Virus record (IMG/VR): IMGVR_UViG_3300015245_000002
Coordinates: 19,745 to 83,744 of that record
Source: a virus
DNA length: 64,000 nucleotides
Direction: 5' to 3' (one strand)
Shown: positions 35,921 to 62,395 of the stretch, one piece after another
Layout: each line of letters starts with the position of its first letter
How positions within the stretch are numbered: position 1 is the stretch's first letter
Translations under genes and position numbers: made by a program
The notes under the pieces: model-generated
What the model saw: the letters and a program-made list of their open reading frames with translations, nothing else
What the model was told of the DNA's origin: nothing
Database searches by the model: none

Positions 35921-37769
35921 GATCGCCGCTGGGGCCAGGGAGGCGCTGGCGCGGAGACGTAGACTCGTCAGCGCCGATGCCGCCAGGGAATCGTTCGCCG
36001 AGTTTTGTCGGCAAGCTATTGTGGCTGGCGAGGTCGAAGGAATCACGCGCGTTGAATGGGGTAGGCATCTTGAACTTCATTGCTGGGAAGTTCAGATGCA
36101 GCTCGAGTCCTGGTTGGTGGCCAACGGCCACGGCACCGAGGAGATGGTGCAGCGCCAGCGCGGAGCATGGGAGCGAACCGGCGCGACCTGGGAGGATGGC
36201 GATTCGGATCCGTGGCTCCGTTACGTATTGGTGCAGAACGCGATCGACAATCTGCCGCCGGGCACTCTCAAGAGCACGATCGTCATGGTGCTGGCCTTGC
36301 CGTGGATCTGGCTGTGGTGCGCCACGTTCTCGATGGGCGCGCTATCCGGGATTGATGCCAACGTCGGCCGCGACTCGCGCGCCTGTCGCGAACTCGTGCG
36401 CAGTGCGTGGTATCGTGAGACGTTCGGGATCTCATGGACCGACTGCACCATCGACGATCCGCTCGATCCGGGCGATGCCCTCGATCTGACGATCAAACGA
36501 GACGCCGACGCCGTGGAGGCCTGGGCCACATCGGCTGGAGGTAAGCGTATCTCGCGAACCATCACCAGGGGGCTTACGGGCGCGCACGTTGACGGAATTT
36601 TCCTCGACGATCCAGACGATGCGGATCGCGTCTACAGCGAGCCCGACAGACTTCGTCCGCAGAACCGATGGGCCCGAGTTGTTGAAACGCGCGTCAACAG
36701 TGATCACAGTTCGATCCGCCGAGTCTTGCAGCAGGTTACCCATCCCGAAGGCTTCACGACCTACGTGCTATCGATCGCGCGATGGTCTCCGGCGCGCCCC
36801 AAGGGTTGGTCGTTGTTCTGTTTACCGGCCGAGTTCGGCTTCGGTCCCGATGATGCGCCGGCTGAGACGCCATACGGGACCCGGGACTGGCGCAGTCTCA
36901 AGGGGGAAACACTACATTCGCGACTATCGCCTGGCGTGCTCGCGGATCGCAAGCTCAAGATCCCAGGCTACGAGTACCAGTTCAATCAGCGGCGAGACAC
37001 ACTGACCGGCGGAGATTTCGAGCGTCGCTTCGCCAAGTTCTTTATTTTTGAAGGCGAGCGCATGCCGACCCGTGCGCGTCCGTTGATGTGCGTGACGCGG
37101 CTCGATTGTCCGCCGCTAATCGTCAAGCAATCATCACTCGATCGATGGACGCTGAGCGTTGACGCTGCGAACAGCATCGATCCGGATCCAAAAGGAAAAA
37201 CCAGCGCAGTCGGCCTGATCGTCGGCGCGACTCGAGCTGACGACAGGTTCATCGTTGATGATCGCACTCGAGTCCTCGGTGCGTCGGCGACCTATCTGGC
37301 GATCTACGAGGCCATCGTCGCCTGGCCGATCGCCTGCGTTTTGGTCGAGCTCAAGGCGATGGGCCCCAGCGTGATCGCCGAGATTAGGCTGACGATTCAG
37401 CGCGGCTGGTATATCCATCCAACATCGAGCGAGCGGATCGATCTGCTCGGCCCGGACGGGCGCCGTCCTCGCTGCGAGGTTGAGGCGTTCAAGCCTGGCA
37501 AGGACAGTAAGGAACAGCGTTGGCAGGGCATGCTTCCGGACTGGCAAGGCGGACGCATATACATGCACGACGGTGCGGACTGGCTGGATCCGACGGTAGA
37601 TGAGAACCGCCGGACGCTGGACGAGGGATTCGTCGGGGAAATTTCAGCCTTGCCGAAATCACGGCGTACAGATCGAGCTGATGCGACCGCGCAGTTTATC
37701 GCCAAGTACCGCGGACCGCCTGTGTCTCGCCCCTCCTACTCCGGCTGGGTCGTCCCGATAGCGCGCTGA
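35883..37769 (+). CDS. terL: Terminase large subunit
   Basis: A 628-residue protein from ATG 35883. Walker A-like PPGTLKSTIVM (about 124-134), Walker B GIFLDDPDD (about 237), and a C-terminal nuclease domain beginning LSVDAANS (about 423) with later acidic residues. Packages phage DNA into the prohead and cuts it. The N-terminal 90 residues are extra basic helix. Ends just before the first late promoter element. Confidence 0.85.
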   Translation: MRTLYPPQTARTEIAAGAREALARRRRLVSADAARESFAEFCRQAIVAGEVEGITRVEWGRHLELHCWEVQMQLESWLVANGHGTEEMVQRQRGAWERTGATWEDGDSDPWLRYVLVQNAIDNLPPGTLKSTIVMVLALPWIWLWCATFSMGALSGIDANVGRDSRACRELVRSAWYRETFGISWTDCTIDDPLDPGDALDLTIKRDADAVEAWATSAGGKRISRTITRGLTGAHVDGIFLDDPDDADRVYSEPDRLRPQNRWARVVETRVNSDHSSIRRVLQQVTHPEGFTTYVLSIARWSPARPKGWSLFCLPAEFGFGPDDAPAETPYGTRDWRSLKGETLHSRLSPGVLADRKLKIPGYEYQFNQRRDTLTGGDFERRFAKFFIFEGERMPTRARPLMCVTRLDCPPLIVKQSSLDRWTLSVDAANSIDPDPKGKTSAVGLIVGATRADDRFIVDDRTRVLGASATYLAIYEAIVAWPIACVLVELKAMGPSVIAEIRLTIQRGWYIHPTSSERIDLLGPDGRRPRCEVEAFKPGKDSKEQRWQGMLPDWQGGRIYMHDGADWLDPTVDENRRTLDEGFVGEISALPKSRRTDRADATAQFIAKYRGPPVSRPSYSGWVVPIAR

Positions 37770-37801
37770 TTTCGCCCCATTGCACCTCGCGCGCCGACAC
37801 T
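37767..37801 (+). promoter_or_regulatory. Late promoter element, portal gene
   Basis: TGATTTCGCCCC (37767-37778), 17 bases, GACACT (37796-37801), six bases to GTG 37808. No ribosome site is present. Confidence 0.75.
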
Positions 37802-37807
37802 TCAGCG

Positions 37808-40252
37808 GTGAAGTGGCGATTTCCGTGGAGCCGCGAAGCGGCCGTTATCGATAAGGCCGCGGCTGCCGGCCCGGGGGGCTTCACGCCAACAGTGACTGTC
37901 CCGCCGCCCACGAAGCCAGCCGGCGCCGACGGCACGGCGATCATCGGCGGTTTCGTCGTCTCGGGCGAGCGCGATCCGAAGCTGACCTCGCTCAACAAGT
38001 GGGTGACCTACGACAACGCGACGCTCAACGTCGCGATCATCGGCTCAGCGATCAACGTTTGGACGCAGCTCGCGGGCTCGGCGACTTGGAGTGTCGAGCC
38101 GAACAAGCGCGGCGGCGCGGATGCGCAGCGGGCCGCGGATCTCGTGCAAGAGGGCTTGCTCGATGCGCAGCTCTCGGTGCCCTGGCGGCAGATCGTACGC
38201 CGCCAGATCATGAAAAAGTTCCGTGGTTTCGCGATGCACGAAATCGTGTTGCGGCGACGGAGCGACGACATGATCGTCGTCGGGGATATCCAGGACAGGC
38301 CGCAGTGGACAATATACCGCTGGAACAGGCCAGATCCGCAGGCTGAATGGGAGGGCGTCGAGCAGCTCACTCAGCAGGGTTACTCGAGTACGTACTACAT
38401 CCCGCGCGAGCGGCTGTTCTACAGCGTCGAGAATACGCTGTCGCCGAACCCGGAAGGCGTCGGACTCCTGCGGCAGATGGCCGAGAGCGTGCGCGTGCTG
38501 GAGATCTACCAGCGGCTCGAGGGTGTCGGTTTTCAGACCGAGCTCGGTGGGGTGCCGATCGCCAGGGCGCCGTTATCGAAGATCGCTCAGGATCTCGGCA
38601 CACAGGGCAAGTCAGATCTGGAGATTCAGGTCGCTGTCAGGGAGAAGGTCTCGATGCTCGAGGCATTCCTGCGTAGCCACAACCGGAACCCCGAGTCTGG
38701 CCTGATGCTCGACAGCGCGACCTACACGAACCGGGACGCGTCGCTCACCCCGAGCTCGATCTACGAGTGGGCCTTCGATCTGATCAAGTCCTCGGGTGGA
38801 GACATGGGCTCGATCGGTACGGCGATCGGACGTGTCACCCGCGACATCGCCCGGGTCATGTGCGCGGAGTGGCTACTCCTCGGCGGCGAGGATAGCGGCG
38901 GCGCGTACTCGATGCACGCGGACAAGACGGCCATGTTTGGCCTCGTCGTGAACTCCGCGCTAAACGACGTGGCCGACGACGCTCGCCGGGACATCGCGAC
39001 GCGGCTCGTGGCGCTCAACGGCCTGGATCCGGAGCTCTGCACGCCGCGTCTGGTCGCTGCGCCCGTCGCCACGGGTGCGGTCAAGGACGCATGCGCAGCT
39101 CTCGCTGCGCTGTTCCAGGCCGGGCTCAATCCGACCGATCCAGCCATCAACGTGCTGCGCAGTCGGATGGATCTGCCGCCGGCGCCCTCGATCGACGAGA
39201 CGGATCTACTCCTGCCCCGCGGCACGGAGATCGAGCGTCTTGGAGCCGATGGGCGGATCGAGGCGGTCGAGGCCGCGACGGGGCAGCCTGTCGGCCCTGG
39301 GGCCGCACCGACCGACGCCGCACCAGGCAAGCCTGGGAACGCGAACGCGCGATCCGTGGGGAAATACGCGCCCGATCAGTCAAGGGATGAGCATGGGCAA
39401 TGGTCCAGCGGAGGTGGCGGTGGCGGTGGCGGGGCGTGGACGCGCGCCTTTGACTCTCGCGATCACATGCGAGAGATCGAGATTCACCGATCTACCGAAT
39501 CCGAGCACCGGGCCGCGGCCAGTGATCTAAAATCAAAGATCGGCGAGCTCCGAAGTCAATCGAAAGACGCAACGCCGGGCCGGGCCGCGCAAATCGATCG
39601 TCGTATCGGTCGACTGCAGGCGCAGCACGACGAGCATGTCGGGATCGCGCATGACGCCGCATCCGCGCGGCGTGCCACGCAGGCAGATCTCGCGGGTCGC
39701 CGCGCCTCGCATGCTCAGGGCTTACGCGATCAGGCCGATGCCCGTCGCGAGGCAGATGCGCATCAGGTACAAGACGAGCGAGACGCGATCGGCAGAGTCG
39801 GCGGTATGCGGATCGGCGGTGAAGGCGATCACGGCGCCGAGGGCGAGAGCAGCAGCCCCGTTCCGCACTACTCGGATACGCCCGATCACCACATGGGGAT
39901 CGGTACAGGTGAACGGATCGCTGGCGAGCCTGTCGTGGCGCCAGTGGTGCCCCAACGGGGACTGACCTCGGAGGACTGGGCGGAGCGTGGCCGTGCGAGC
40001 CACGCCGAGTGGGCCGCGGCGCAGGATCATCAACGACTGCAAGCCGAGACCGCGGCGCGCCAAACGGCCCGCGCCAACGATGAATACAAGCAACGGGAGC
40101 AAGGCGCCCGTGATCTGCCAGTAGCCAGCGCCAGGCCCAGTCTCGGGCAACGGCTACGCGGGATGCTGGGCAGCAAGAAGGCATCGGCCACTGCGGTCGA
40201 CTTGCTCGAGCTTGAGGCGATGCTCGATGAGCACGAGGAGCCGACGAAGTGA
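37808..40252 (+). CDS. Portal protein (DUF935-like) with extended C-terminus
   Basis: An 814-residue protein. Residues 60-470 follow the Mu gp29/DUF935 portal pattern (KFRGFAMHEIVLRRR, YIPRERLFYSVE, GLLRQMAESVRVLEIYQRLE). The C-terminal 330 residues are an extra region: KYAPDQSRDEHGQWSS linker, poly-Gly, then long charged coiled coil. It forms the head vertex ring through which DNA enters. GTG start set by the late promoter. Confidence 0.8.
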   Translation: MKWRFPWSREAAVIDKAAAAGPGGFTPTVTVPPPTKPAGADGTAIIGGFVVSGERDPKLTSLNKWVTYDNATLNVAIIGSAINVWTQLAGSATWSVEPNKRGGADAQRAADLVQEGLLDAQLSVPWRQIVRRQIMKKFRGFAMHEIVLRRRSDDMIVVGDIQDRPQWTIYRWNRPDPQAEWEGVEQLTQQGYSSTYYIPRERLFYSVENTLSPNPEGVGLLRQMAESVRVLEIYQRLEGVGFQTELGGVPIARAPLSKIAQDLGTQGKSDLEIQVAVREKVSMLEAFLRSHNRNPESGLMLDSATYTNRDASLTPSSIYEWAFDLIKSSGGDMGSIGTAIGRVTRDIARVMCAEWLLLGGEDSGGAYSMHADKTAMFGLVVNSALNDVADDARRDIATRLVALNGLDPELCTPRLVAAPVATGAVKDACAALAALFQAGLNPTDPAINVLRSRMDLPPAPSIDETDLLLPRGTEIERLGADGRIEAVEAATGQPVGPGAAPTDAAPGKPGNANARSVGKYAPDQSRDEHGQWSSGGGGGGGGAWTRAFDSRDHMREIEIHRSTESEHRAAASDLKSKIGELRSQSKDATPGRAAQIDRRIGRLQAQHDEHVGIAHDAASARRATQADLAGRRASHAQGLRDQADARREADAHQVQDERDAIGRVGGMRIGGEGDHGAEGESSSPVPHYSDTPDHHMGIGTGERIAGEPVVAPVVPQRGLTSEDWAERGRASHAEWAAAQDHQRLQAETAARQTARANDEYKQREQGARDLPVASARPSLGQRLRGMLGSKKASATAVDLLELEAMLDEHEEPTK

Positions 40253-40890: not shown

Positions 40891-40903
40891 ATTGTCGCTG
40901 ACG

Positions 40904-40938
40904 TGATCTCGCCCCATCCCGTCACCCGCCGCGATGCT
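40904..40938 (+). promoter_or_regulatory. Late promoter element, adaptor gene
   Basis: TGATCTCGCCCC (40904-40915), 17 bases, GATGCT (40933-40938), six bases to GTG 40945. This decides the start codon of the gene against an upstream in-frame GTG at 40903. Confidence 0.75.
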
Positions 40939-40944
40939 GTCCTC

Positions 40945-41322
40945 GTGGCTCTCAACATCGCCAAAACGATCGCCTCGGCCCTTTCCAAGGCTGGCAAGCC
41001 GTTGGGCGTGAAGTCCTGCACGCTGCTCAAGTCGAGCCCCGGCACCCGCGCTCCAGGCGCCACTGCCAGCGGCACAAATCCGACCGTGACGAGTTACGCG
41101 GCCGTCGGCATGGTCACGGCTTATGCGACCGAGATTTTGCCCGACTCCACGATCGCGGTGAAGAAGCGCTCCGTGCTGTTGCTTGGCGCGACCATCGTGG
41201 GCGGTGCTATGCCGGCTCCAGGCGACCGCATCGTCATCGGTGGCGAGACGCTGACCATCGATCCGGGTGGCGCCAAGGCGGATCCGGTCCAAGCCACTTG
41301 GCAATGCGAGACCACGCTGTGA
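40945..41322 (+). CDS. Head-tail adaptor or minor tail protein
   Basis: A 125-residue protein starting at GTG 40945 (VALNIAKTIASALSKAGK). Basic N-terminal helix followed by a beta domain (SVLLLGATIVGGAMPAPGDR, TLTIDPGG). Size, position and fold type fit a head-tail joining protein. Ends one base before the next gene. Confidence 0.6.
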   Translation: MALNIAKTIASALSKAGKPLGVKSCTLLKSSPGTRAPGATASGTNPTVTSYAAVGMVTAYATEILPDSTIAVKKRSVLLLGATIVGGAMPAPGDRIVIGGETLTIDPGGAKADPVQATWQCETTL

Positions 41323-41323
41323 C

Positions 41324-42304
41324 ATGCGGACCGCCGCCGACGCTCAATCCCTGATCGGCAACACCGCCGCTGCGGTCAAGCATGCCTGGATCGCGCTCGT
41401 GGTTCGGCTGCGGGCCGCGAACCCGCCGGACGCGCTCCAGCACCGGCTGCATGCCATGGAGCCGGTGCTCGGCACTGATCCAGCGGCTCGCGCCCTGGCC
41501 GCTGCGTATACTTCGCAGTTCGTGGCCACGGGCGCCGCGGTCGCGGCAGATGCGACGCAGCAGTCGGCCGCTTCGGTCCGCAAGGACGTCGGCTCACCCG
41601 CCGACGTGATCGGGTTCGATCCAATCGCCCAAGGCGTGTTGACTTGGGCCGAGCGTAACCGGCTCGATCTGATCCGGGGCATCACATCCGAGCAGCGGAT
41701 CATGATCCGTTTCGCGCTCAGCGAGGCGCAGTCCAGCGGCGAGAGTCCGCTGACCACGGCACGGGTGATCCAGGAGTCGATCGGACTGAGCGAGCAGCAA
41801 CTCGAGTGGGTGCAGAGCTTCGAGCGATCCCTGCGCGCCGGTCAGCTCTCCGCAGCCGCGGATCGCGCTCTGGTCGATGGCCGCACCGCGCGCATGCTGC
41901 GGACCGCGGACGAGCTCGCGCCCGCGCAGATCGATCGCGCTGTCTCCAGGTACCGCGACAAGATGATCACGTTCCGTGCTCAGACCATCGCTAGAACCGA
42001 GGCCTCGCGCATCGTGGGTCAGGGTACAACCGAGATGTACGATCAGGCGATCGAGCGCGGAGACTTAGTCGCGACGCAGCTCGAATGCACGTGGAATCAC
42101 AGCCCGACGGCCAAGGATCACAGCCACGATCGCGACTTCCATGTTTCGATGCACAAGCAGACTCGCGCATGGGGTGAGCCGTTCGTCTCGGGCCTCGGCA
42201 ACGAACTCATGTATCCGTGCGATCCAGACGCGGAGCCGAAGGAGACCGTGAACTGTCGTTGTGCGCGTACGGTACGACTGAGACCGAGGCGCAGTTTGGT
42301 GTAA
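41324..42304 (+). CDS. Phage head morphogenesis protein (MuF-like)
   Basis: A 326-residue protein. The C-terminal half carries the MuF domain signature (QTIARTEASRIVGQGTTEMY, CTWNHSPTAKD and ending CRCARTVRL). Minor head protein delivered or required for head assembly. The N-terminal part is Ala-rich helix. Confidence 0.8.
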   Translation: MRTAADAQSLIGNTAAAVKHAWIALVVRLRAANPPDALQHRLHAMEPVLGTDPAARALAAAYTSQFVATGAAVAADATQQSAASVRKDVGSPADVIGFDPIAQGVLTWAERNRLDLIRGITSEQRIMIRFALSEAQSSGESPLTTARVIQESIGLSEQQLEWVQSFERSLRAGQLSAAADRALVDGRTARMLRTADELAPAQIDRAVSRYRDKMITFRAQTIARTEASRIVGQGTTEMYDQAIERGDLVATQLECTWNHSPTAKDHSHDRDFHVSMHKQTRAWGEPFVSGLGNELMYPCDPDAEPKETVNCRCARTVRLRPRRSLV

Positions 42305-42334
42305 TCGCCCCCAGGTGCCAGCGGGCACGAAGCT
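42300..42334 (+). promoter_or_regulatory. Late promoter element, protease gene
   Basis: TGTAATCGCCCC (42300-42311), 17 bases, GAAGCT (42329-42334), six bases to ATG 42341. Confidence 0.75.
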
Positions 42335-42340
42335 TGCTGT

Positions 42341-44362
42341 ATGCCCGCAGCGCCATACTACAGGCTTCGAATCAAGAGCCTGAAATTCATTTCTGCCGTC
42401 GATGCAGGCGCGCAGGGACCCATCGCAAATGTGGCGCTGATCAAGCGCGCGCCGACCGGGGATGACGTCGATGCGACTTGTCGGGTCGTCAAGGTCGACG
42501 AGAAAATGGGCCTTGTCTTCGGGTGGGCCCTGGCCACATCGCTTGACGGCGGCGAGACGCCACATGTCGATCTCCAGCAGGACGCAATCGTCGGTGACGA
42601 CGAGCTGATCAAGATCGCCGCGGAGTTCATGGAGGCTTCTGCGGCGTCGGACGTGATGCACGATGACAGCCCCGACGGGAAGATCGTGTTCTGTATCCCG
42701 CTCACCAAGGCGGTGACCGACGCTCTTGGCATCGCGTCCAAGGTCCACGGCCTGGCGATCGGCATGCGACCGTCGCCGGAGACGTTTGCGCGGTTCGTGA
42801 GCAAGGAGCTCAACGCGTTTTCCATTGCCGGCATCGGCGAGCGAGAGCTCGTTGCGAAGACTGACGTGCCGGCGTGCTCGAGCTGCGGCAAGTACGGCAA
42901 GGCAGACGACGAGACTTGCAAGGATTGCGGCAAGGCGATGAAGGCTGCGACCACCAAGTCTGTCCTCTCCACCGCGGACAAGGACTCGCTGCCAGACAGC
43001 GCGTTTCTGTTCGTCGAGAGCGGTGGCACCAAGGAAGGCGGCAAGACGACCCCGCTCTCGTTGCGGCACTTCCCGTATCGCGACAGCGCCGGGAAACTGG
43101 ATATCGTGCACTTGCGCGCGGCGTGCAGCGATATCCCGAAGTCTTCGTTGCCCAAGGATGTTCGCGACAAGCTCCAGGTCAGGGCCGAGAAGTTGCTCGG
43201 ACAGCAACACATGGCGGCGAAGCGCGCCGCCGTTTCGGTCCCTGGCCAGGTCGCCAAGGGTACCGTCCTGACCAGCGCCGTCGACGGCCATGCGCACTCG
43301 ATCGTGCTCACGGATCCGGCTGACAAATGGCGCTGCGGCGCATGGTCCACGAGCTATCAGGCCAGCGAGGGCTCGGACATGACCCACAACCATGCGCTGA
43401 CCTACGACGAAGCGACCGGAGTCATCACCGTTGGTGAGGACAGCGGCCACACGCATACGGTCGACGCGATCGTGCCGATTGGACTTCGGGCCGCGGCGGT
43501 CTCCGACGAGTCGAGTGATGGCGTCTGCGCGGCGCCACCTGTCGACGATGATGATGGGTCCGGGCCGACGATCGTTATCGTCTCAGCGCGAGCCCCTGAA
43601 GGTATTTCGCCCCCCTCAACCCAAGCACGTAGCGTGAAGAGTAAGGACAAGGAGCCCACTGTAATGGCCGACCACAACGATGTGATTCGCGCTCTCCAAA
43701 CGGAGAACGCACTGCTCAAGAGCATGGCCACGCTGACCGACGCGCAGCGGGCCCACCACGACAAGCTGATTTCCAAGGGCGTCAAGAGCGATGCCGATGC
43801 ATTCCTGTCGCTCACCTCGACGCAGCGGAATGTGGTTCTCGGCGAGATCGCCAAGGCCAACACCGAGGTCTACACCTCCAAGAGCACCGGGCGCGTCTAC
43901 CGCAACGATGACGCCATCGAGATTATCGAGGCGGCCCGTCAGACCGATGCGATGGCCGAGACCATGAAGCGTCTCGACACCGAGCGTACCGAGTTGGACT
44001 TCTCCAAGCGCGGAGCGGTCGCCTTCGCAAATTTCGCGAAGGGCGTGAAGGGCAACCTACACGGCCGATTCATGAAGGCGCTGGCTGGTGAGTTCACTGA
44101 TCCGGCCGAATTCGCCGAGGCCGAGCGTGCATTCAAGCAGGCCAATGTGGCACTCGCCGAACTCACCAAGGTCCGTGGCTACACGCCGAGCGAAGAGGAG
44201 TCTGGCGCGAACGTGGCGCAGAAGAAACTGCACGTCGCCGTCGACGAATTCGCCAAGGCACACAAGCTTTCCTACCCAGTTGCCCTCGAGCGCGCGACTG
44301 CGCCCGGCGGTGACGATGAGATCCGTCGCCTCTACAACGACGCGATGGCCGAGCAGAACTGA
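42341..44362 (+). CDS. XkdF-like head maturation protease fused to scaffold
   Basis: A 673-residue protein. Residues 40-150 match the XkdF/S78-type serine protease (GLVFGWALATSLDGGETPHV, ASDVMHD, GLAIGMRP). A zinc ribbon (CSSCGKYGK...CKDCGK) follows near 180-205. Residues 442-673 are a helical scaffold region that also has its own start (43664). As in lambda C/Nu3, the full protein would be the protease and the short form the scaffold. Confidence 0.8.
   Translation: MPAAPYYRLRIKSLKFISAVDAGAQGPIANVALIKRAPTGDDVDATCRVVKVDEKMGLVFGWALATSLDGGETPHVDLQQDAIVGDDELIKIAAEFMEASAASDVMHDDSPDGKIVFCIPLTKAVTDALGIASKVHGLAIGMRPSPETFARFVSKELNAFSIAGIGERELVAKTDVPACSSCGKYGKADDETCKDCGKAMKAATTKSVLSTADKDSLPDSAFLFVESGGTKEGGKTTPLSLRHFPYRDSAGKLDIVHLRAACSDIPKSSLPKDVRDKLQVRAEKLLGQQHMAAKRAAVSVPGQVAKGTVLTSAVDGHAHSIVLTDPADKWRCGAWSTSYQASEGSDMTHNHALTYDEATGVITVGEDSGHTHTVDAIVPIGLRAAAVSDESSDGVCAAPPVDDDDGSGPTIVIVSARAPEGISPPSTQARSVKSKDKEPTVMADHNDVIRALQTENALLKSMATLTDAQRAHHDKLISKGVKSDADAFLSLTSTQRNVVLGEIAKANTEVYTSKSTGRVYRNDDAIEIIEAARQTDAMAETMKRLDTERTELDFSKRGAVAFANFAKGVKGNLHGRFMKALAGEFTDPAEFAEAERAFKQANVALAELTKVRGYTPSEEESGANVAQKKLHVAVDEFAKAHKLSYPVALERATAPGGDDEIRRLYNDAMAEQN
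43602..43635 (+). promoter_or_regulatory. Internal late promoter element for the scaffold
   Basis: GTATTTCGCCCC (43602-43613), 16 bases, TAGCGT (43630-43635), inside the protease gene. Unlike the others it is followed by a ribosome site (AAGGAG, 43649-43654) and ATG 43664 rather than an immediate start. Confidence 0.5.
43664..44362 (+). CDS. Nested scaffold protein (in-frame internal start)
   Basis: Internal ATG 43664 in the frame of the protease gene, with AAGGAG nine bases upstream. Gives a 232-residue helical, charged protein (MADHNDVIRALQTENALLKS) typical of head scaffolds, which guide capsid assembly and are then removed by the protease. The internal promoter-like element adds support. 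Alternative: only the fused form is made. Confidence 0.65.
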   Translation: MADHNDVIRALQTENALLKSMATLTDAQRAHHDKLISKGVKSDADAFLSLTSTQRNVVLGEIAKANTEVYTSKSTGRVYRNDDAIEIIEAARQTDAMAETMKRLDTERTELDFSKRGAVAFANFAKGVKGNLHGRFMKALAGEFTDPAEFAEAERAFKQANVALAELTKVRGYTPSEEESGANVAQKKLHVAVDEFAKAHKLSYPVALERATAPGGDDEIRRLYNDAMAEQN

Positions 44363-44374
44363 GGAGCGAGGAAC

Positions 44375-47369: not shown

Positions 47370-47404
47370 CGATTTCGCCCCGCACCCCCTCTTCGCCCGA
47401 CGCT
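47370..47404 (+). promoter_or_regulatory. Late promoter element, tail tube gene
   Basis: CGATTTCGCCCC (47370-47381), 17 bases, GACGCT (47399-47404), six bases to ATG 47411. Confidence 0.75.
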
Positions 47405-47410
47405 GGCCCT

Positions 47411-48946
47411 ATGTCCAGCCTGCCTGTCGCCAAGGCCGAAGCCGCAAATCTGATCGTGGTCAAGGAGACCGCACTGGGCACCCCGGCGGCTGCCGGTGGC
47501 CAGACCCTGCAACCAAACGCCGATGGAATCGGCAACTTTTATCCGCAGATCAAGACGGTCGCGCCGAGCCCGCTCTCGAAGCTGCGGCAGATGGAAGCGC
47601 CGGTCATCGTCGATGTCGACGCCAAGCCGACGCTGACACAGGACTTGACCAAGGATGTTACCGACGCATTCGCTGAGGGCATGATGATGGCCAAGGCGAA
47701 ACACTCGGGCGGCACGGGGGTGGCGTACTTCACGAACAATCTTCCGACGCCGACGGTCACTGCGCGGACCACGACCGCGTACACGGTTTCCGCCGCTGGC
47801 GCGCTCCAGGCCGGCACGCTGGTCGTGCCGCGCGGTTGGATCACGGGCGCAAACGCGACGGCCAACGCGACGCTGCAGGTGGTCGGGGCGAGCTCGACTT
47901 CGACATCGATCCCGGTCGCGGCTGGCGTTGCCGAGACCCCGTCGGGGTACACGGTCACGCTCGAGGTGGCAGGGTTCCGTGGTGCCTCGGGAGACATTCA
48001 ATTGAACGGATCAGGGAACCTGATCTCGACCGCAGCTGACTTCACGACGATGGGCCTGAACGTTGGCCAAGTGATCTATGTCGGCGGCACCATCGGATCC
48101 GGCCACGACTTCGCAACCGCGGCATATCGTGGCTTCGCCAAGATCACCGCAATTGCAGCCGCGCTGCTCACGCTCGAGCGGCGGCAGTGGACGGTCGCCA
48201 GCGCCGATACCGGAAGTGGCAAGACGATCGATCTGTACTGGGGTCGCTGGCTTCGCACCGTCGCGTTTACTGACGCGGACTATCTCGAGACGAGCTACAA
48301 CATGGAGCTCGCGTATCTCAAGCTGTCAGCCGGCACGACCGACGAGTACGTGTACTCGAACGGGAACTACATCGATCAGGTCAAGATCAACTCGCCGGCG
48401 CAGAACCTACCGACGGTCGAGTACAGCTTCCTGGGCACCACGATCGCGGATCCAACCACGACCCGCGCCACCTACGGCGGCGTCGCCGCGAGCCCGCTCG
48501 GGATCGATCGCTACAACACCGTGACCCGCGAGCCGTACCTGTCCCTGCGCAAGAAATCAGACGAGTCGGTGGTCAGTGACGACATCGAGACATGGGCGCT
48601 GACCTACATGAACCACGTCTCTGCGCAGAAGCAGCAGGGGACGCAGGGCACCAAGCGCGTGATCGTTGGCAAGGCCGAGGTCGGGCTGTCGGTGACCGCC
48701 GCGGCGACCAGCGACGCCGCGATGATCGCGTGCTCGCAAAACACCACGCTGACTTTCGGCGCTGGGTTCAACAGCAGCGACGGCGGGATCTTCTTCGACG
48801 TGCCGAGCGTGAAGTGCACCAATGCACCTCCGAAGTTCCCGGCGAACAGCCAGGTCATGCTCGATCTGACCGCCGCGGGGTTTCGCGATTCGGTCGGCAA
48901 CTACACGCTTGCGGTGTCGCTGTTTCCGTACTTGCCGGTGGTGTGA
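47411..48946 (+). CDS. Major tail tube protein
   Basis: A 511-residue protein. N-terminus (IVVKETALGTPAAAGGQTLQ) and C-terminal KRVIVGKAEVGLSVTAAATS, SSDGGIFFDVPSVKC fit tail tube proteins of this length, with an internal Ig-like insertion near 120-200. Polymerises into the tail tube. Confidence 0.75.
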   Translation: MSSLPVAKAEAANLIVVKETALGTPAAAGGQTLQPNADGIGNFYPQIKTVAPSPLSKLRQMEAPVIVDVDAKPTLTQDLTKDVTDAFAEGMMMAKAKHSGGTGVAYFTNNLPTPTVTARTTTAYTVSAAGALQAGTLVVPRGWITGANATANATLQVVGASSTSTSIPVAAGVAETPSGYTVTLEVAGFRGASGDIQLNGSGNLISTAADFTTMGLNVGQVIYVGGTIGSGHDFATAAYRGFAKITAIAAALLTLERRQWTVASADTGSGKTIDLYWGRWLRTVAFTDADYLETSYNMELAYLKLSAGTTDEYVYSNGNYIDQVKINSPAQNLPTVEYSFLGTTIADPTTTRATYGGVAASPLGIDRYNTVTREPYLSLRKKSDESVVSDDIETWALTYMNHVSAQKQQGTQGTKRVIVGKAEVGLSVTAAATSDAAMIACSQNTTLTFGAGFNSSDGGIFFDVPSVKCTNAPPKFPANSQVMLDLTAAGFRDSVGNYTLAVSLFPYLPVV

Positions 48947-48955: not shown

Positions 48956-48989
48956 GGCAATCGCCCCGCTCGTGCCGCGGCGCGACGCT
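48956..48989 (+). promoter_or_regulatory. Late promoter element, chaperone gene
   Basis: GGCAATCGCCCC (48956-48967), 16 bases, GACGCT (48984-48989), seven bases to ATG 48997. Confidence 0.65.
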
Positions 48990-48996
48990 GAGATGC

Positions 48997-49431
48997 ATGA
49001 CGGACTTCGGACTCGATCGCTACGACCTGTCTCGGATCACTCGGCGCATCCCGCTGCCGGAGATCTCACCGGATCCGGCCAAGCCGTTCACGCTGATCGT
49101 GTGCAGCGCGAGCAACGGGAACCGCGGTTACCGAAACGCGTTGTTCAAGCGCAGCAAGCAAGACGACGCAGTGACAGATCCACTGGTCAGAGACGAAGCG
49201 GCGCTCGCAGAGCTTGCTCAGGACCTCGCCGGAACGGTGATCGTGGGCTGGGAGAATGTGTTCGAGGACGGCAAGCCGCTGGCGTTCAGCGCCGAAGCAG
49301 CGAACCGCCTCGTCGTTGAGCTCCTGACGCGCGTCCGCGATGTTTGGAACGCCCGCGTGGCTCCGGTGATCTGGTCCGATCCCGGCAGCTTTCGCACCGC
49401 GCCGGATCCGGTCGAACTGGGAAAAGAGTAG
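48997..49431 (+). CDS. Tail assembly chaperone (first frame)
   Basis: A 144-residue protein. Position between tail tube and tape measure, length and the GGGAAAA slip site three codons before its stop fit the gpG-like chaperone. It binds the tape measure protein during tail assembly. Sequence itself (PFTLIVCSASNGNRGYRNAL) is not distinctive. Confidence 0.7.
   Translation: MTDFGLDRYDLSRITRRIPLPEISPDPAKPFTLIVCSASNGNRGYRNALFKRSKQDDAVTDPLVRDEAALAELAQDLAGTVIVGWENVFEDGKPLAFSAEAANRLVVELLTRVRDVWNARVAPVIWSDPGSFRTAPDPVELGKE
49419..49425 (+). other. Programmed -1 frameshift slippery site
   Basis: GGGAAAA read as G-GGA-AAA in the chaperone frame, a canonical X-XXY-YYZ heptamer, followed by GAG TAG. A -1 slip enters the downstream frame at AGA GTA GCG. 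Confidence 0.8.
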
Positions 49432-53816: not shown

Positions 53817-53851
53817 TGATTTGGACCCATGCGCGTCCGGTAAGCGAGCGT
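53817..53851 (+). promoter_or_regulatory. Late promoter element, 53857 gene
   Basis: TGATTTGGACCC (53817-53828), 17 bases, GAGCGT (53846-53851), five bases to ATG 53857. A divergent copy of the late element. Confidence 0.55.
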
Positions 53852-53856
53852 AAGCC

Positions 53857-54309
53857 ATGGCCAATTACGGCGCAGAGATCACGAAGGGTACCACGAGCAC
53901 ATCGGTCGGTATCGCCTCGCTCGAGGCCCCCGCATCGAGCATGCGCAGGATCAAACTGTACGATGTGTGGCTAGGCTCCGATGCCGGTACGCTCGGAACT
54001 AGCGATTTTCGTTTCGAATTTACACGATCGACAACGGCAAGCACCGGAACCTCGGTGACCCCGTCGCTGCTCGATCTGGCCGATGTGGCGTGTGTCGCCT
54101 TGGTCAAGACGAACCTCACCGTCGAGGGAACCACTGCCGGGCTCATCCCCAAGGCTGTCGCGATGTCGGAGCAAAACACGGTGCGGTGGGTCGCGAATCC
54201 AGGCAGTGAACTCGTGATTCCAGCCGTCGCATCGGCCGGGATCATTCTCCGCACGCCCGTCGTCGGCAACACCGTCGGTTTCGCTGGAACCTTCGAATTC
54301 TCGGAGTAA
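53857..54309 (+). CDS. Virion protein, tail-associated
   Basis: A 150-residue beta-rich protein (SVGIASLEAPASSMRRIKLY, AGIILRTPVVGNTVGFAGTF). Looks like a small tail or fibre-attachment domain; similar in style to the protein at 59852. Its stop shares a base with the next ATG. Confidence 0.6.
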   Translation: MANYGAEITKGTTSTSVGIASLEAPASSMRRIKLYDVWLGSDAGTLGTSDFRFEFTRSTTASTGTSVTPSLLDLADVACVALVKTNLTVEGTTAGLIPKAVAMSEQNTVRWVANPGSELVIPAVASAGIILRTPVVGNTVGFAGTFEFSE

Positions 54310-54638: not shown

Positions 54639-54640
54639 TC

Positions 54641-54904
54641 ATGCGGCGTGCGCGCGCGGAGCAAGGCGTGCTGATCACGACGTGCGGCAGTCAGCACGTG
54701 GAGCAATCGACGATCACGTGCTGTCACTGCGGGTCGCTGACGATTATCCCAGTTCGGGCATCCGCCGACGAATGCGGCGGGTTCTGTCGTCGGTGTATGC
54801 GGCAGACCTGCGCGGCATGTGCGGACCAGGGCTGCACACCATTCGAACGACGACTGGAGAAGGCAGAGGCTCGCGGCCGACTTCTGGCCAGCATGGGGTT
54901 GTAG
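54641..54904 (+). CDS. Tail-region zinc-finger protein
   Basis: An 87-residue protein starting at ATG 54641. Cys pattern CCHCGS...CRRCMRQTCAACADQGC followed by TPFERRLEKAEARGRLL, a family commonly seen in phage tail modules. Probably a small zinc protein; role unknown. Confidence 0.65.
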   Translation: MRRARAEQGVLITTCGSQHVEQSTITCCHCGSLTIIPVRASADECGGFCRRCMRQTCAACADQGCTPFERRLEKAEARGRLLASMGL

Positions 54905-54907
54905 ATC

Positions 54908-56875: not shown

Positions 56876-56909
56876 GTTTTCGCCCCGGGGCCGCGCGGTC
56901 GCTGACGAT
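56875..56909 (+). promoter_or_regulatory. Late promoter element, 56916 gene
   Basis: AGTTTTCGCCCC (56875-56886), 17 bases, GACGAT (56904-56909), six bases to ATG 56916. Confidence 0.7.
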
Positions 56910-56915
56910 GGCTGT

Positions 56916-57269
56916 ATGGGGCTACCCCTATTCGGCACGGTCATCGACTACAGCGTCGCGAGTAACAACTCGGAGATCGTGCTCGCGCTGGGCACGGTCA
57001 CGTTCGTCAACCTGACCAGCAGCAGCGATTTTCTCAACGTCATCGGGATCCAGAACACCGGCGGCAACGTCGACGGATTTCTGGTTTGCTTCGTCAACAA
57101 GGGTCCGTTCGGGATCGTTTTCTTACACAACTCGTCGCTCGAGTCCACGGTCGGGAATCGTCTCCTGAATTTCAGCCTCGCGAGCAAGCTGATCGCGAGC
57201 GCGACGTCAGCGGCGTGGCGTTACGACGGCGGCACGAACCGCTGGCATCACCTCTGGAGCTCGTTCTGA
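56916..57269 (+). CDS. Small beta-rich virion protein
   Basis: A 117-residue protein (TVIDYSVASNNSEIVLALGT, GNVDGFLVCFVNKGPFGIVF). Resembles the C-terminal part of the 54908 protein (VVCVVNVGNTSQTF; WYRYDAFIQRWVQF vs WRYDGGTNRWHHLW), so it may be a duplicated tail domain. Confidence 0.6.
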   Translation: MGLPLFGTVIDYSVASNNSEIVLALGTVTFVNLTSSSDFLNVIGIQNTGGNVDGFLVCFVNKGPFGIVFLHNSSLESTVGNRLLNFSLASKLIASATSAAWRYDGGTNRWHHLWSSF

Positions 57270-57270
57270 T

Positions 57271-58152
57271 ATGGCGACGACATTTGACGAAGACGAGCGC
57301 TCGACGAGCCAGAGTCGTCCGATTGATCTCTTCACGATCATGACGCCCACGACCGGGACGTACCGGATCACGTCACACGAGACCGATGTCTCCTATGGTG
57401 GGTTCACGTACACCGCCACCACCGCGAGTCGCGGCAATTTCGCGCTGCAACCGGACAGCTCACAGAACGAGCTCATCGTCTACCTGCCGATCTCGCATCC
57501 GTTCGTCCAACGCTTCGCCAGCGGGATCCCGGAGATGGGCGTAACGATCACGCTGGTTCGGATGCAGTCGCTGAGCGCCCAGGCCGGTCAGTTGTGGACC
57601 GGATACGCGCAGTCGCTGAGTGTTGACGGTCATGTCGCGATGATCCGCGTGCCAGGCCTGACCGCGGATGCGTTCAAGACACAGTTACCGACGGTCGGGG
57701 CTCATACCACGTGCAACCATCGGCTGTTCGACGGGCGCTGTGCACCGAATCCCGGCGGGGAGTGGCCGACGGGGCTGGGGGCAGGGAGTGGCGGTCCGGA
57801 TTTTGCGGCGTTTCAAATTTCGAGCTCGATTGCGTCGGTATCAGCTGACGGCAAGACGATCACACTGTCATCAATTGGCGATAATCAGGATAGATGGGCG
57901 CAGTACGGAAGGATCATTCTCAGCAACGGAGATGCACGTTATATTGTTAATCAGATCGGAACTACGATTACGATTACGAAACCGTTCTACTCGATAACTA
58001 CTGGCGTAGTGATTGAGTCTGGATGCGATCATTCTATCTTTGCCTGCAATGCTAAGTTCAACAACATCTACAATTTTGGCGGTCATGCGCGGATGACCTC
58101 AGAGTCCGATCCGTGGCATCCGGGCGGACTCGGAATCGTGGTTCAGGTCTGA
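57271..58152 (+). CDS. Baseplate hub protein (DUF2163 / BR0599 family)
   Basis: A 293-residue protein. The C-terminal half has the BR0599-type Cys motif (TTCNHRLFDGRCAPNPGG and FACNAKFNNIYNFGGHARMT), as in gene-transfer-agent and siphophage tail tips. Residues 1-150 are the DUF2163 beta domain (DLFTIMTPTTGTYRITSHE). Codon use is slightly AT-richer near the end. Confidence 0.75.
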   Translation: MATTFDEDERSTSQSRPIDLFTIMTPTTGTYRITSHETDVSYGGFTYTATTASRGNFALQPDSSQNELIVYLPISHPFVQRFASGIPEMGVTITLVRMQSLSAQAGQLWTGYAQSLSVDGHVAMIRVPGLTADAFKTQLPTVGAHTTCNHRLFDGRCAPNPGGEWPTGLGAGSGGPDFAAFQISSSIASVSADGKTITLSSIGDNQDRWAQYGRIILSNGDARYIVNQIGTTITITKPFYSITTGVVIESGCDHSIFACNAKFNNIYNFGGHARMTSESDPWHPGGLGIVVQV

Positions 58153-58153
58153 A

Positions 58154-59815
58154 ATGTGGGGCCTAATCATCGAAGCCGCGATTCTGACTGGCTCATATAT
58201 CTATCATCGTTGGTTCGAGGATCAGCCGGCGGTGTTGCGCTGGCAACCAATGGTGCTGCCTCGCACCGCGGAGGGCACACCGCTGCCGCTCGTTTATGGC
58301 AGTTGTCGAGTCCGAAATCCGGTGATGGTCTGGTCGGGCAACAACATCACTCCGGGGGATGCATATCATCCGTTTGATCCCGGAGTCGGAGACGGCGGAG
58401 TAAATCCGCAAAATCCAATCGCGGACCATTTCAGTGTCGATATGATCTTCGTGCTGGGGATTCCTCCATATTCTCCGCCGAATACCCAATTTTCAGCTGG
58501 TGCTGCGTTTGTCGGACTGTGGTACGGAGATTCCAGAGTACTAAATCTATTCACAGATAAAACTGATGGCCTCGGTGGGCAGATTGGATCCGAACTGACT
58601 AGGTTCTATGCTGGTCGTTTGTTTTTCCCGGGAGAGATCGGACAGGATCTGACTCCGCTTCAACGCGATGAGTTCAACATCGCCGGCATGTTCTATTCCG
58701 GAGACACCGCCGGAAAGTTCCCCCTCGATGCAACCGACATCCAGCCGTTCTTCATCTTCTTTGATCGTGGCGGTCTCGGTCAGATCCTCGCAACGTACCC
58801 GGACCGCGTTTACTATTCGACCAATGCTGGCGCCGGTAATTGCTCCGCCTTGACTGCGCTCACACAGGCCGGCGACGCCAACAAGATGGGCGCAATACGC
58901 AATCAGGTCGGTGTGTACCTGCACGTCGGACTTGGCCAATCGTCATCGATTAGCGGATTCTCATTCGAGATCTATGCGACGACAAACTTTACGGCCTCTG
59001 ACCTCGGCATCGCAGACTGGCGCTCGCCGACAGGTATCCACATCGATATGCGCTCCGAATGTGATCCTGCTGCAGTGCTCTACGATATTCTCACGAGCTC
59101 GTGGGGCAAGCTTGGGATCGGGACGACACGCATCGATATCGCCAGTTTTCAGTCCGCGAGCCAGACACTGTTCGACGAGTTTAATGGCTACTCGAGGTGC
59201 ATCGACCAGGGGACCGACGCATCACAAATCATTCAAGAGCTGCTCCAGCAGATGGATGCTGTGCTCTATGAGGAACCGTCGTCTGGTAAGTTGACGCTCA
59301 AACTGATCCGGTTCGATTACAATTCGGCGTTGCTTGATGATGTGAACCCAGGCAACGCAACGCCGGAGGGCTCCGGATGGTATTCAGTGCAGTCGTGGGC
59401 CGAGGTGACGAATCAGGTTAAGATCACCTGGACGAACCGCAGCCTATCCTATCAGGACGCGATAGTCACCGCGCAGGATTCGGTCGTTGCAATCAATAAC
59501 GGTGGCCGGATTCGCACTGCGTCGCTGTCGTTTCCTGGTGTCTGCACCTCGACGTCGGCAACGCGAATTGCAGCCCGCGAACTCAATGCGATAAGCCAGC
59601 CGATGGTCAAGGCAACGGTCAAGGTCAGCCGAGCATTTTACCAGCACCGCCCCGGAGATGTTGTCACGTTCACGTGGCCGGATCTGGGGATCAACAAAAT
59701 GGTCATGCGAATCGCCGGGGTTGACTTCGGCCAACTTCATGATCCGTCGATTACGATGCAACTAATGCGGGACGTGTTCGACGTGCAGGGCGGTGCCTTC
59801 CCCTACAATCGATGA
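58154..59815 (+). CDS. Tail tip / host-specificity protein
   Basis: A 553-residue protein. N-terminal RTAEGTPLPLVYGSCRVRNP is the pattern of J-like or GTA gp15-like tip proteins; hydrophobic N-terminus (LIIEAAILTGSYIYHRW). Central hub repeats and a C-terminal Ig-like part (VKATVKVSRAFYQHRPGDVV). Probably contacts the host receptor. AT-richer than neighbours. Confidence 0.7.
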   Translation: MWGLIIEAAILTGSYIYHRWFEDQPAVLRWQPMVLPRTAEGTPLPLVYGSCRVRNPVMVWSGNNITPGDAYHPFDPGVGDGGVNPQNPIADHFSVDMIFVLGIPPYSPPNTQFSAGAAFVGLWYGDSRVLNLFTDKTDGLGGQIGSELTRFYAGRLFFPGEIGQDLTPLQRDEFNIAGMFYSGDTAGKFPLDATDIQPFFIFFDRGGLGQILATYPDRVYYSTNAGAGNCSALTALTQAGDANKMGAIRNQVGVYLHVGLGQSSSISGFSFEIYATTNFTASDLGIADWRSPTGIHIDMRSECDPAAVLYDILTSSWGKLGIGTTRIDIASFQSASQTLFDEFNGYSRCIDQGTDASQIIQELLQQMDAVLYEEPSSGKLTLKLIRFDYNSALLDDVNPGNATPEGSGWYSVQSWAEVTNQVKITWTNRSLSYQDAIVTAQDSVVAINNGGRIRTASLSFPGVCTSTSATRIAARELNAISQPMVKATVKVSRAFYQHRPGDVVTFTWPDLGINKMVMRIAGVDFGQLHDPSITMQLMRDVFDVQGGAFPYNR

Positions 59816-59845
59816 ATCGACCCCCGCCCGCCGCCGAGCGAACCT
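59812..59845 (+). promoter_or_regulatory. Late promoter element, 59852 gene
   Basis: ATGAATCGACCC (59812-59823), 16 bases, GAACCT (59840-59845), six bases to GTG 59852. One of the weaker copies. Confidence 0.5.
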
Positions 59846-59851
59846 CATCCG

Positions 59852-60715
59852 GTGAGCTACCCCGGCGCGCAACACTCGGCATCGCGATGGACCGCGACCG
59901 TGTACTCGATTGCGGCCAGTACGCGGCCGGCGGTCGGCATGGGCACGAGTACCACGCCGGGGAACAACACGTACGGGACCGCCGTCACACTGATCAGCGG
60001 TGCGAACCTGACCTTCGACTGCTGCGAGTTGGTGGTCTGCGTCAACAATGCCGCGATTTCGGCTACGGCGCGCGACACCGTTGCCGCGCTGCTCGTTGAT
60101 CCAGCTGGCGGAGCGTCGTTTACCTCGATCGCGGATCTGGTCTGCGGTCCATGCTCTGGATACGTCACCGCGAACGTCGGTTTTGGCGGCACGATATTCC
60201 GCCTCCCGCTTTGGATCAAAGCCGGAACGAGCATCGGCATCGCCACGGCGGTGAACTCAGCCACGGTCACCGCGCTCAATGCGTTCTGTCGCGTCAATGG
60301 CCAGCCGAGCGATCCGCGGACCGCGCCGTTCATCGGTACCTATATCGACCAGTTCGGCGTGTCGCTGGCGACTAGCGCCGGCACGACCGTCACGCCGGGC
60401 ACGACCACCGATGGCGCCTACGCGCTCATCGGTACGACAACGCGCCCCCTGTACGCGCTCGAGTTCGGCTACGGCATCAACGATGCGACCATGACCGCTG
60501 CGGTTTGCGATGTCGACATCGCCGCAGGGGACGGCACCACGAACACCGTGATCATTCCGAGGTGGCCGGTGGCGACGAGCGCCATCGAGGCGGTCTCGAA
60601 GTTCCCGGCCCTGGCCTACACCTCGATCGCTGCCAATGTGGGGCTCTACGCGCGGGCGCAGTGCTCGAATACGCCTGACAGCGCAAACTCGGTTGCAATC
60701 TACGGAGTTGGGTGA
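59852..60715 (+). CDS. Tail fibre or virion protein
   Basis: A 287-residue Thr/Ala-rich beta protein from GTG 59852 (TVYSIAASTRPAVGMGTSTT, MTAAVCDVDIAAGDGTTNTV). Likely a fibre or decoration domain of the tail tip. No family recognised. Confidence 0.6.
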   Translation: MSYPGAQHSASRWTATVYSIAASTRPAVGMGTSTTPGNNTYGTAVTLISGANLTFDCCELVVCVNNAAISATARDTVAALLVDPAGGASFTSIADLVCGPCSGYVTANVGFGGTIFRLPLWIKAGTSIGIATAVNSATVTALNAFCRVNGQPSDPRTAPFIGTYIDQFGVSLATSAGTTVTPGTTTDGAYALIGTTTRPLYALEFGYGINDATMTAAVCDVDIAAGDGTTNTVIIPRWPVATSAIEAVSKFPALAYTSIAANVGLYARAQCSNTPDSANSVAIYGVG

Positions 60716-60718
60716 ACC

Positions 60719-61849
60719 ATGGCTGTTCCGTTTACCCCGACGACAGGTAGCGCGAGTGCCGGCGCGAGCGAGATCTCGTTGATCAGTGGGACGACGTCGT
60801 TACAGGCGTCAACCACGGCTGGTGATGTCGAGATCTGGATCGATCTGTCCAACATGGTGGTGGGTGACCAGTACCAGGTTCGCCTCGTCGAGAAGGTGAA
60901 CGGGGGCACGGCTGCCAACGCGTTCATCTCCTTCCCCAAGGATGTCCAGGTCGGGCTGTACCGGGTCGGTCCGTTGCGCGTAAGCGAGGGGTGGGATCCG
61001 CGTCTGAAACTGACGAGCGGTAGCGCGCGTACCGTCAACTGGTCGATCCGCCAGTACGTCGGCGATGTCAACGCGCTCACGCTCGGCTCGGGCGCGGTGA
61101 CCGCGACGGCGATCGCCAGTTCGGCCATCACGAGCGCGAAGTTCGCGACCGATGCGCTCGATTCGAATGCGCTTGCGGCCAGTGCTGTCACAGAGATCCA
61201 GACCGGACTCGCGACGTCAACGGCGCTCGCCAGTGTGCAGACCGACACGACGACGCTCACAGGGCGCCTGACGAGCACTAGGGCCGGACTGCTGGATAAT
61301 CTCGACGCGACAGTCTCCAGTCGAGCGGCATCGGCCACGGCGCTGTCAACCGCCACATGGACGAATGCCCGTGCAGCCGAGATCGACAACCTCGACGCAG
61401 CGGTGACCACGCGCGCGCCGGCCAGCACCGCGCTTAGCACCGCCACGTGGACCAACACGCTCGCCGCGCTGATCACTTCCATGCTCGATGTCGCGGTCAG
61501 TACTCGGGCATCGGCTGCGGCGCTCGCTGCGGTCGCTGCGCAGTTACCGGCCACGCTCGACGGTAGCGGGAATATCAAGGCCGGGGTGCAGTCGATCGTG
61601 GGTGCAGCTGCGACGACGATCGCCGACACGGTGATGAACTACGCGATCGAATCCGGCTGGACCAACGCGGCAACGTTCATCACACAGGCGCGCGTCATGT
61701 TCGGCATCATCGTGAATAAGGCGAGCGGCCTGGCTATCACGACCGGAAGTACCGAGCACTTTCGCAACGCGGCAGACACCAAGGATCGCGCTGTTTACGC
61801 AGTCGCCACCGATGGCACGCGTACCCCGACCACCGTGGACGGGACCTGA
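60719..61849 (+). CDS. Tail fibre with coiled repeats
   Basis: A 376-residue protein. Residues 1-110 form a head domain (VAVPFTP-like, LISGTTSLQASTTAGDVEIW). Then repeats of the type TALSTATWTNARAAEIDNLD, AAVTTRAPASTALSTATWTN form a long coiled stalk. Typical fibre stalk; binding domain not evident. Confidence 0.7.
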   Translation: MAVPFTPTTGSASAGASEISLISGTTSLQASTTAGDVEIWIDLSNMVVGDQYQVRLVEKVNGGTAANAFISFPKDVQVGLYRVGPLRVSEGWDPRLKLTSGSARTVNWSIRQYVGDVNALTLGSGAVTATAIASSAITSAKFATDALDSNALAASAVTEIQTGLATSTALASVQTDTTTLTGRLTSTRAGLLDNLDATVSSRAASATALSTATWTNARAAEIDNLDAAVTTRAPASTALSTATWTNTLAALITSMLDVAVSTRASAAALAAVAAQLPATLDGSGNIKAGVQSIVGAAATTIADTVMNYAIESGWTNAATFITQARVMFGIIVNKASGLAITTGSTEHFRNAADTKDRAVYAVATDGTRTPTTVDGT

Positions 61850-62049
61850 TGCATCTGGGGCAACATTTCGGGCAGCATGTGGGCCAGCACTTCGGTGCGA
61901 TCGGCGGGCCGATCGTCCTCGCGCCGACGCTACCGATCTGCGTGCACGTCACCTCGCTGTCCACGCTCTGCGCCGTCTCCGCAGGCATGAGCGTGCAGAT
62001 AATCGACAACAGCATCCACGCGACGATCGTGCGAGGCCCCTGTGACTGA
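61849..62049 (+). CDS. Small protein with GQHF repeats
   Basis: A 66-residue protein starting HLGQHFGQHVGQHFGAIGG, a His-rich short repeat that may bind metal, then a hydrophobic stretch. Overlaps the fibre stop and the next start. Unknown. Confidence 0.5.
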   Translation: MHLGQHFGQHVGQHFGAIGGPIVLAPTLPICVHVTSLSTLCAVSAGMSVQIIDNSIHATIVRGPCD

Positions 62050-62362
62050 TTCGATCACATTCCAGATTCGCCAAGGGGATTTGCTGCCAGCGATCACGGT
62101 GCAAGTCTTCAACGTGATCGGCGCGGTTGATCTCACTGCGTTCAGTGGTGGAATCACGTTCCGCATGGTCAAGGGTACGACAGTGATCACGGGCGCTGCG
62201 AGCGGTACCTCGGGTGGGCTCGCCACGTATCAGTGGCAGAACGGCAACACGGACATCGCCGGGATCTATGCCGCAGTGTTTGTCGGCATCGACGGTGGTG
62301 GTAGGCACGAGACGTTTCCGACCGCGCAGAACCTGTCCGTAGTGATCGTCGCGGCGATTTAG
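62042..62362 (+). CDS. Baseplate upper protein-like (BppU N-terminal type)
   Basis: A 106-residue beta protein from GTG 62042: ITFQIRQGDLLPAITVQVFN, GGITFRMVKGTTVITGAAS, a pattern shared by BppU-type fibre attachment domains. Probably anchors the adjacent fibre or beta-helix protein. Confidence 0.65.
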   Translation: MTDSITFQIRQGDLLPAITVQVFNVIGAVDLTAFSGGITFRMVKGTTVITGAASGTSGGLATYQWQNGNTDIAGIYAAVFVGIDGGGRHETFPTAQNLSVVIVAAI

Positions 62363-62389
62363 ACCCCCTCGGCCTGGTCGGGTGAGCCT
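62355..62389 (+). promoter_or_regulatory. Late promoter element, beta-helix gene
   Basis: CGATTTAGACCC (62355-62366), 17 bases, GAGCCT (62384-62389), six bases to GTG 62396. Confidence 0.6.
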
Positions 62390-62395
62390 GCTTAC

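Follow-up and report, generated by a model that had tools for sequence, protein, structure and literature searches.

In this study, we describe a repeated bipartite element that stands directly upstream of virion genes in a lineage of uncultivated phages, and these elements very probably represent a phage-specific class of late promoters with leaderless starts, read by host RNA polymerase under the direction of a factor that the phage makes or recruits. The DNA analysed (the window, 64,000 nucleotides) comprises bases 19745-83744 of the IMG/VR virus record IMGVR_UViG_3300015245_000002 (83,744 bases in total). Its source is a siphovirus-like phage, which encodes an integrase and an RNA ligase in the left arm, a VapE-type helicase-primase, and the terminase, portal, major head, tape measure and tail genes on the right side. 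The closest cultured relatives (RDJL, KPP23 and RHph phages) are distant, their head and tail proteins being about 30-35% identical, and we found no isolate of the phage's own group. The terminase recovered no relatives when used as a query against viral contigs, the sole relative among GTDB genomes was a 25% capsid match in Petroclostridium that lacks the element, and a tRNA search for a clue to the host returned no tRNAs. Relatives were gathered by means of the head protein and the tail protein and, separately, by means of the DNA pattern alone: a scan of IMG/VR with AATCGCCCC-N16/17-GACGCT-N5/7-ATG returned the known members plus four new contigs of the same kind. These genomes have a GC content of 63-69%, and the apparent sources of the first IMG/VR relatives point to soil as their apparent habitat. 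Gene starts were predicted from a simple coding score together with the element itself. One relative, IMGVR_UViG_3300034816_000006 (L026-L029; 76,195 bases), seems to be circularly closed and permuted, since its tape measure gene spans the contig end into the start, and is thus probably a complete genome. At L008:8427-9299 and L008:17266-18267, an RNA ligase and a HAMP-domain protein were noted in the phage's left arm.

Nine elements precede start codons on the plus strand of the window. The first, TTCGCCCC-N17-GACACT-N6 (37771..37807), lies before the GTG at 37808 of the portal gene (814 aa), followed by CTCGCCCC-N17-GATGCT-N6 (40908..40944) before the GTG at 40945 (125 aa) and ATCGCCCC-N17-GAAGCT-N6 (42304..42340) before the ATG at 42341, which opens a fusion of a prohead protease and a scaffold-like part (673 aa; Peptidase_S78_2 match, E=5.6e-4). 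Further downstream, TTCGCCCC-N17-GACGCT-N6 (47374..47410) stands before the ATG at 47411 of a tail protein (511 aa), ATCGCCCC-N16-GACGCT-N7 (48960..48996) before the ATG at 48997 (144 aa), TTCGCCCC-N17-GACGAT-N6 (56879..56915) before the ATG at 56916 (117 aa) and ATCGACCC-N16-GAACCT-N6 (59816..59851) before the GTG at 59852 (287 aa). The remaining two have weak boxes with an imperfect -35 (TGGACCC at 53822, TAGACCC at 62360), namely TTGGACCC-N17-GAGCGT-N5 (53821..53856) before the ATG at 53857 (150 aa) and TTAGACCC-N17-GAGCCT-N6 (62359..62395) before the GTG at 62396 of a beta-helix protein (474 aa). All nine boxes reported in the initial annotation of this DNA were recovered where it had placed them, together with the distance from the CGCCCC hexamer to the start codon (35 at seven sites, 34 at the two before 53857 and 59852) and the spacings of exactly 17 and 6 at six sites. 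The boxes themselves had been drawn too long, as the core is the shorter WTCGMCCC and the leading TGAT or TGAA is partly the stop codon of the upstream gene, and an intragenic tenth copy had been overlooked.

Across the clade, the element reads WTCGMCCC-N16/17-[G>T]ANNNT-N5-7-(A/G)TG. In the profile of 52 sites, the -35 box consists of W, T, C (49/52), G, M, C, C and C, and after 16-17 bases the -10 box consists of G, A, N, S, M and T, followed by 5-7 bases, the last mostly C, and then by ATG or GTG. The A at -11 (52/52) and the T at -7 (51/52) were both partly selected by the search, and position -12 is G in 42/52, C in 6 and T in 4. In large contigs, T at -12 (TAGCGT, TACCGT, TAGCCT) was observed in most portal copies and in all internal copies, the others having mostly G, and T versus G might possibly mark two strength classes of the element. 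In 200 Markov-1 nulls, which keep the dinucleotide content, strict sites at starts average 0.055 for the window, where seven are observed; in 16 loci, 33 strict elements were counted and such nulls give 0.2. Pairs of TCGMCCC and GANNNT within the clade are concentrated at spacers N16 (18) and N17 (19), no other length between 10 and 24 having more than three. Both strands of 413 kb together contain 68 strict sites, each of which lies before a gene start or at a conserved internal site: 52 have RTG at 5-7 bases, 12 are internal, and four have the start just beyond this range or a better start codon nearby (d=7, 8, 8 and 11). An open scan in which no start codon was required returned 52 RTG, two CTG and no TTG at 5-7 bases, and in both CTG cases ATG or GTG follows a few bases further on. 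Strict matches in non-members (two in L015, two in KPP23) resemble background. L010 and L023 have no strict site, the only copy in L023 having a -10 that begins with C.

The element recurs before orthologous virion genes of other uncultivated phage contigs, as the initial annotation had proposed to check by motif discovery in related phages. It precedes the orthologues of the tail gene at 47411 in 12 of 13 contigs and those of the capsid (major head) gene in 0 of 13, although counts across contigs are not independent events because the contigs are related. The thirteenth tail-gene orthologue, in the sister lineage L013, has AGGAGG where the element would stand, and the major head gene copies inspected within the clade have AGGAGC instead of the element. 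For the portal gene the element was found in six contigs, its orthologues including G005, G007 and G014 as well as G015 (d=8) and L020 (d=11); for the protease gene at 42341 in eight contigs (orthologues in L002, L003, L005, L020, G007, G005 and G014); and upstream of the gene at 48997 in nine contigs. The weak boxes of the window have perfect counterparts in relatives, at 10207 in L004 and 9819 in L022 for the gene at 53857, and at 11564 in L026 for the gene at 62396. For the gene at 56916, the element in L004, G005 and G014 stands before the next gene instead. The element before 40945 occurs in the window only, among eight orthologues, and is thus the least supported of the nine. The distant cultured relatives KPP23, RDJL Phi 1, RHph_Y5A and Ottawa use Shine-Dalgarno (SD) sites throughout and are without the element system.

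Genes behind the element lack ribosome sites, as had been noted from the window alone: an SD match of at least 5 was found in one of 48 element genes against 82 of 232 other genes (Fisher p=4e-7), and the SD signal at element genes is not above that of random DNA. The SD-like sites at tail-gene and head-gene orthologues without the element, together with the use of SD sites in the cultured relatives, indicate that element and SD site are mutually exclusive. A pyrimidine occupies -1 in 42/48 element genes and in 140/232 others, as expected of a transcription start, and the purine at +1 is partly built in, since the 48 genes were found with ATG or GTG required. The geometry had been interpreted in the initial annotation as that of a promoter whose mRNA begins at the start codon. 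This interpretation gains from the conservation at orthologues, the SD exclusion and the bases at -1 and +1, and likewise from two further features treated below, the leaderless primary-sigma-type promoters in the same register and the internal copy placed off a start codon. With the element, its geometry, its conservation and these parallels established at the level of DNA, late promoters whose mRNA would begin with the start codon have good support, transcription and the 5' ends themselves being predicted.

The same genomes carry leaderless promoters of the primary sigma type. The pattern TTGACN-N17-TANNNT (once N18), followed by 6-7 bases and ATG, was found at eight non-element genes against 0.15 expected, including TTGACA-N17-TACAGT-N6 (22950..22978, minus strand) before the ATG at 22943 and TTGACG-N17-TACAGT-N6 (28830..28858, minus strand) before the ATG at 28823. 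Both of these share TCTGTNCGTACAGT (22950-22963 and 28830-28843, minus strand), and in one of them a palindrome, CTGTACGTACAG, extends across the -10; this region might possibly be an operator of a phage repressor. If the -35 of the late element is counted as TCGMCC, a spacer of 17-18 bases and six bases to the start codon place it in the register of the TTGACN promoters, and a spacing of 16-18 with about six bases to the start, as for a primary sigma promoter, is likewise found at the late elements. This identical register favours a promoter over a translation signal. The initial annotation was thus right that the boxes are not the sigma70 consensus, with WTCGMCCC in place of TTGACA, but the distance from the sigma70 plan is smaller than it held, as TCGMCC keeps the TTGACN register and A(-11) and T(-7) are retained. 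No excess of sigma70 consensus was found in the late block (32-51 kb). In cluster O mycobacteriophages, SigA-type leaderless promoters have been described whose predicted start is the start codon's first base (PMC4351075), and mycobacteria translate leaderless ATG and GTG mRNAs efficiently (PMC4633059). Here, too, both ATG and GTG serve, and the early promoters look just like those of cluster O, while the late elements have different boxes at -35 and at -12, and each large contig contains them at six or more places. The host of the present phages is likely to be able to translate leaderless mRNAs with either codon.

The overlooked tenth copy, TTCGCCCC-N16-TAGCGT (43606..43635, plus strand), lies inside the protease gene and has no start codon at +1. 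It was found in 12 of the 13 contigs that cover the place (missing in L010), always with N16 and always with TACCGT, TAGCGT or TACGGT. In most contigs an SD-like site follows and then an in-frame ATG 13-37 bases downstream. In the window a nested in-frame ORF (43664..44362, plus strand; 232 aa, scaffold-like) begins behind AAGGAG and would be served by this copy. The protease and scaffold-like halves, matched by position, are encoded by two genes side by side in RDJL Phi 1 (gp71 and gp72) and RHph_Y5A, and thus the internal start probably yields a scaffold-like protein. The T that opens the internal TACCGT-type -10 is the third base of its codon, and 12/12 copies retain it, whereas 6-14% of third positions are T; a protein-level cause of the internal copy was ruled out, as synonymous positions are constrained. 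Being uncoupled from a start codon, the internal copy argues against a translation signal and for a promoter. A scaffold gene nested in frame within a protease gene is known from lambda C/Nu3, and the arrangement here is alike in this respect, but differs in that a conserved late element, from which transcription may start, precedes the internal start. Large proteins that vary between contigs were also observed beside or fused with the protease gene (L002 1015-3402, L005 147-3149, L018 735-3368 and L003 4531-9243), and the product of L018 735-3368 has no Pfam match.

On these grounds we propose that host RNA polymerase, redirected by a factor that the phage makes or recruits, would read WTCGMCCC at -35 and [G>T]ANNNT at -10 across 16-17 bases, and would start RNA about six bases downstream of the -10, which at virion genes is the first base of ATG or GTG. 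The resulting leaderless virion mRNA would be translated without an SD site, the downstream genes of each short operon would rely on ordinary SD sites, and the conserved internal copy would give a leadered mRNA with an SD site inside the protease gene for the nested scaffold-like protein. The factor might be a diverged or host alternative sigma, or an activator that remodels sigma.

The A and T retained in the -10 are those on which melting by sigma70-family factors depends, but a non-TTGACA -35 combined with a G preference at -12 makes the primary sigma alone unlikely. It is quite conceivable, though short of probable, that a sigma of distinct specificity reads the late promoters, be it a diverged one of the phage or an alternative one of the host. 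The G preference suggests reading by a different region 2.4, and TCGMCC sits exactly where TTGACN sits in the early promoters. Salmonella phage 7-11 (phiEco32-like) has eight bipartite late promoters of this kind with a 16-base spacer, read by the phage sigma SaPh711_gp47 (PMC8948821). Both systems thus place a repeated, clade-specific, non-sigma70 bipartite element before late genes, polymerase redirection being demonstrated for 7-11 and suggested by sequence here, but the consensus differs (GTAAtg-16-aCTA in 7-11, WTCGMCCC-16/17-KANNNT here), and the placement on start codons predicted here is not known from 7-11. The sigma of 7-11 is known, whereas a search of the larger contigs with five sigma profiles (Sigma70_r2, r4 and r4_2 from Pfam, TIGR02937 from NCBIfam, phrog_1740 from PHROG) gave nothing over the cut-off, although a strongly diverged sigma could escape profiles. 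The weak r4_2 matches (window 12167-12523; L027:16408-17733) are helix-turn-helix arrays, lie below the cut-off and do not occur in all members, and were set aside. The product of window 8900-9826 likewise consists of helix-turn-helix repeats that match sigma region 4 weakly, and the L027 protein is related to the product of window 8834-9826. Contrary to the initial annotation, a dedicated late sigma or activator would not in itself be new, since those of phage 7-11, the phiEco32 sigma, T4 gp55 and Mu C are already known; the novelty lies in the consensus, in a leaderless arrangement that recurs at most of the clade's late operons, in the internal copy with its leader and in the absence of a recognisable sigma.

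Alternatively, a small phage protein might bind the -35 and the host holoenzyme in place of the sigma4 contact, like T4 AsiA/MotA or Mu C, a possibility that we entertain only tentatively. AsiA/MotA acts at the middle promoters of T4 and C protein at the late promoters of Mu, in both cases as a phage activator that takes over the -35 contact at a set of phage promoters; here the -35 keeps the sigma register, -12 is changed as well, and no homologue was identified. Late regulators are often encoded just before terminase genes, and a gene for a 216-aa zinc-finger-like protein (32811..33461, plus strand), with paired Cys/His motifs and a conserved DGRxRYHGQ..RGQQ, occupies this position, heading the late block, in each of the four contigs that extend over it (G000, G005, G007 and G014). 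BLAST outside the structural block found in common to G000, G005 and G014 only the VapE helicase-primase, a VRR-NUC-like nuclease, a small-terminase-like gene and the 216-aa protein, the last being the only possibly regulatory gene of unknown kind among them. By its position this protein appears to be the best candidate for the factor that reads the late element, and the retained A(-11) and T(-7) of a primary -10 would suit an activator. However, a place before terminase would also suit a packaging role, and an activator alone leaves the G preference at -12 unexplained. The 216-aa protein has no match in 50,697 phage records and no Pfam family, its predicted structure has a pLDDT of 59, and a fold search with this model gave no hit with E below 0.9, the top matches, to M. 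tuberculosis sigma A, not being significant. The adjacent gene (33458..33820, plus strand; orthologue L028:16135-16458) encodes a second zinc-finger-like protein of 120 aa with a weak Q-like PHROG match (E=0.12). In its boldest form, this proposal holds that a zinc-finger-like phage protein, neither a sigma nor a known activator and with no known homologue beyond the clade, directs host RNA polymerase to a GC-rich -35/-10 pair at each late operon and thereby makes the whole virion programme leaderless, which would be a new class of late-gene switch; this seems rather unlikely to us.

It is very improbable that the element acts in translation initiation or otherwise at the RNA level rather than as a promoter, in the manner of the start-associated sequence (SAS) of cluster K mycobacteriophages (GGGATAGGAGCCC), which lies 3-7 bp before the start and contains the SD (PMC3203893). 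Like SAS, the element is a conserved sequence that keeps a short, constant distance to many start codons within one phage clade, and here it takes the place of the SD site. But SAS is one box that includes an SD, whereas the present element has two boxes and no SD, and the SAS box is absent from the aligned late elements. Moreover, the element has the spacing and the A and T positions of a promoter, as well as a register in common with the early leaderless promoters of primary sigma type. Its internal copies lack a start codon at +1 and carry an SD further on, and the elements gave no consensus fold and no Rfam family. Chance, or a product of GC-rich coding sequence, can be dismissed for practical purposes: GC-rich boxes might be expected in such GC-rich genomes, but the null expectations are far below the observed counts (0.055 vs 7 in the window, 0.2 vs 33 in the 16 loci) and the element is kept at orthologous genes of diverged contigs.

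For an uncultivated phage lineage, the element provides a code by which late promoters can be read from sequence and which predicts operons, exact transcription starts and start codons, and it serves as a search handle, as the DNA pattern alone finds members of the group. It raises the question of what reads a promoter with a non-primary -35 and -12 but the register of the primary sigma, and of how a phage would express most of its virion operons from leaderless messages. The pattern suggests that a viral factor redirects host RNA polymerase in this little-known group of uncultured phages.
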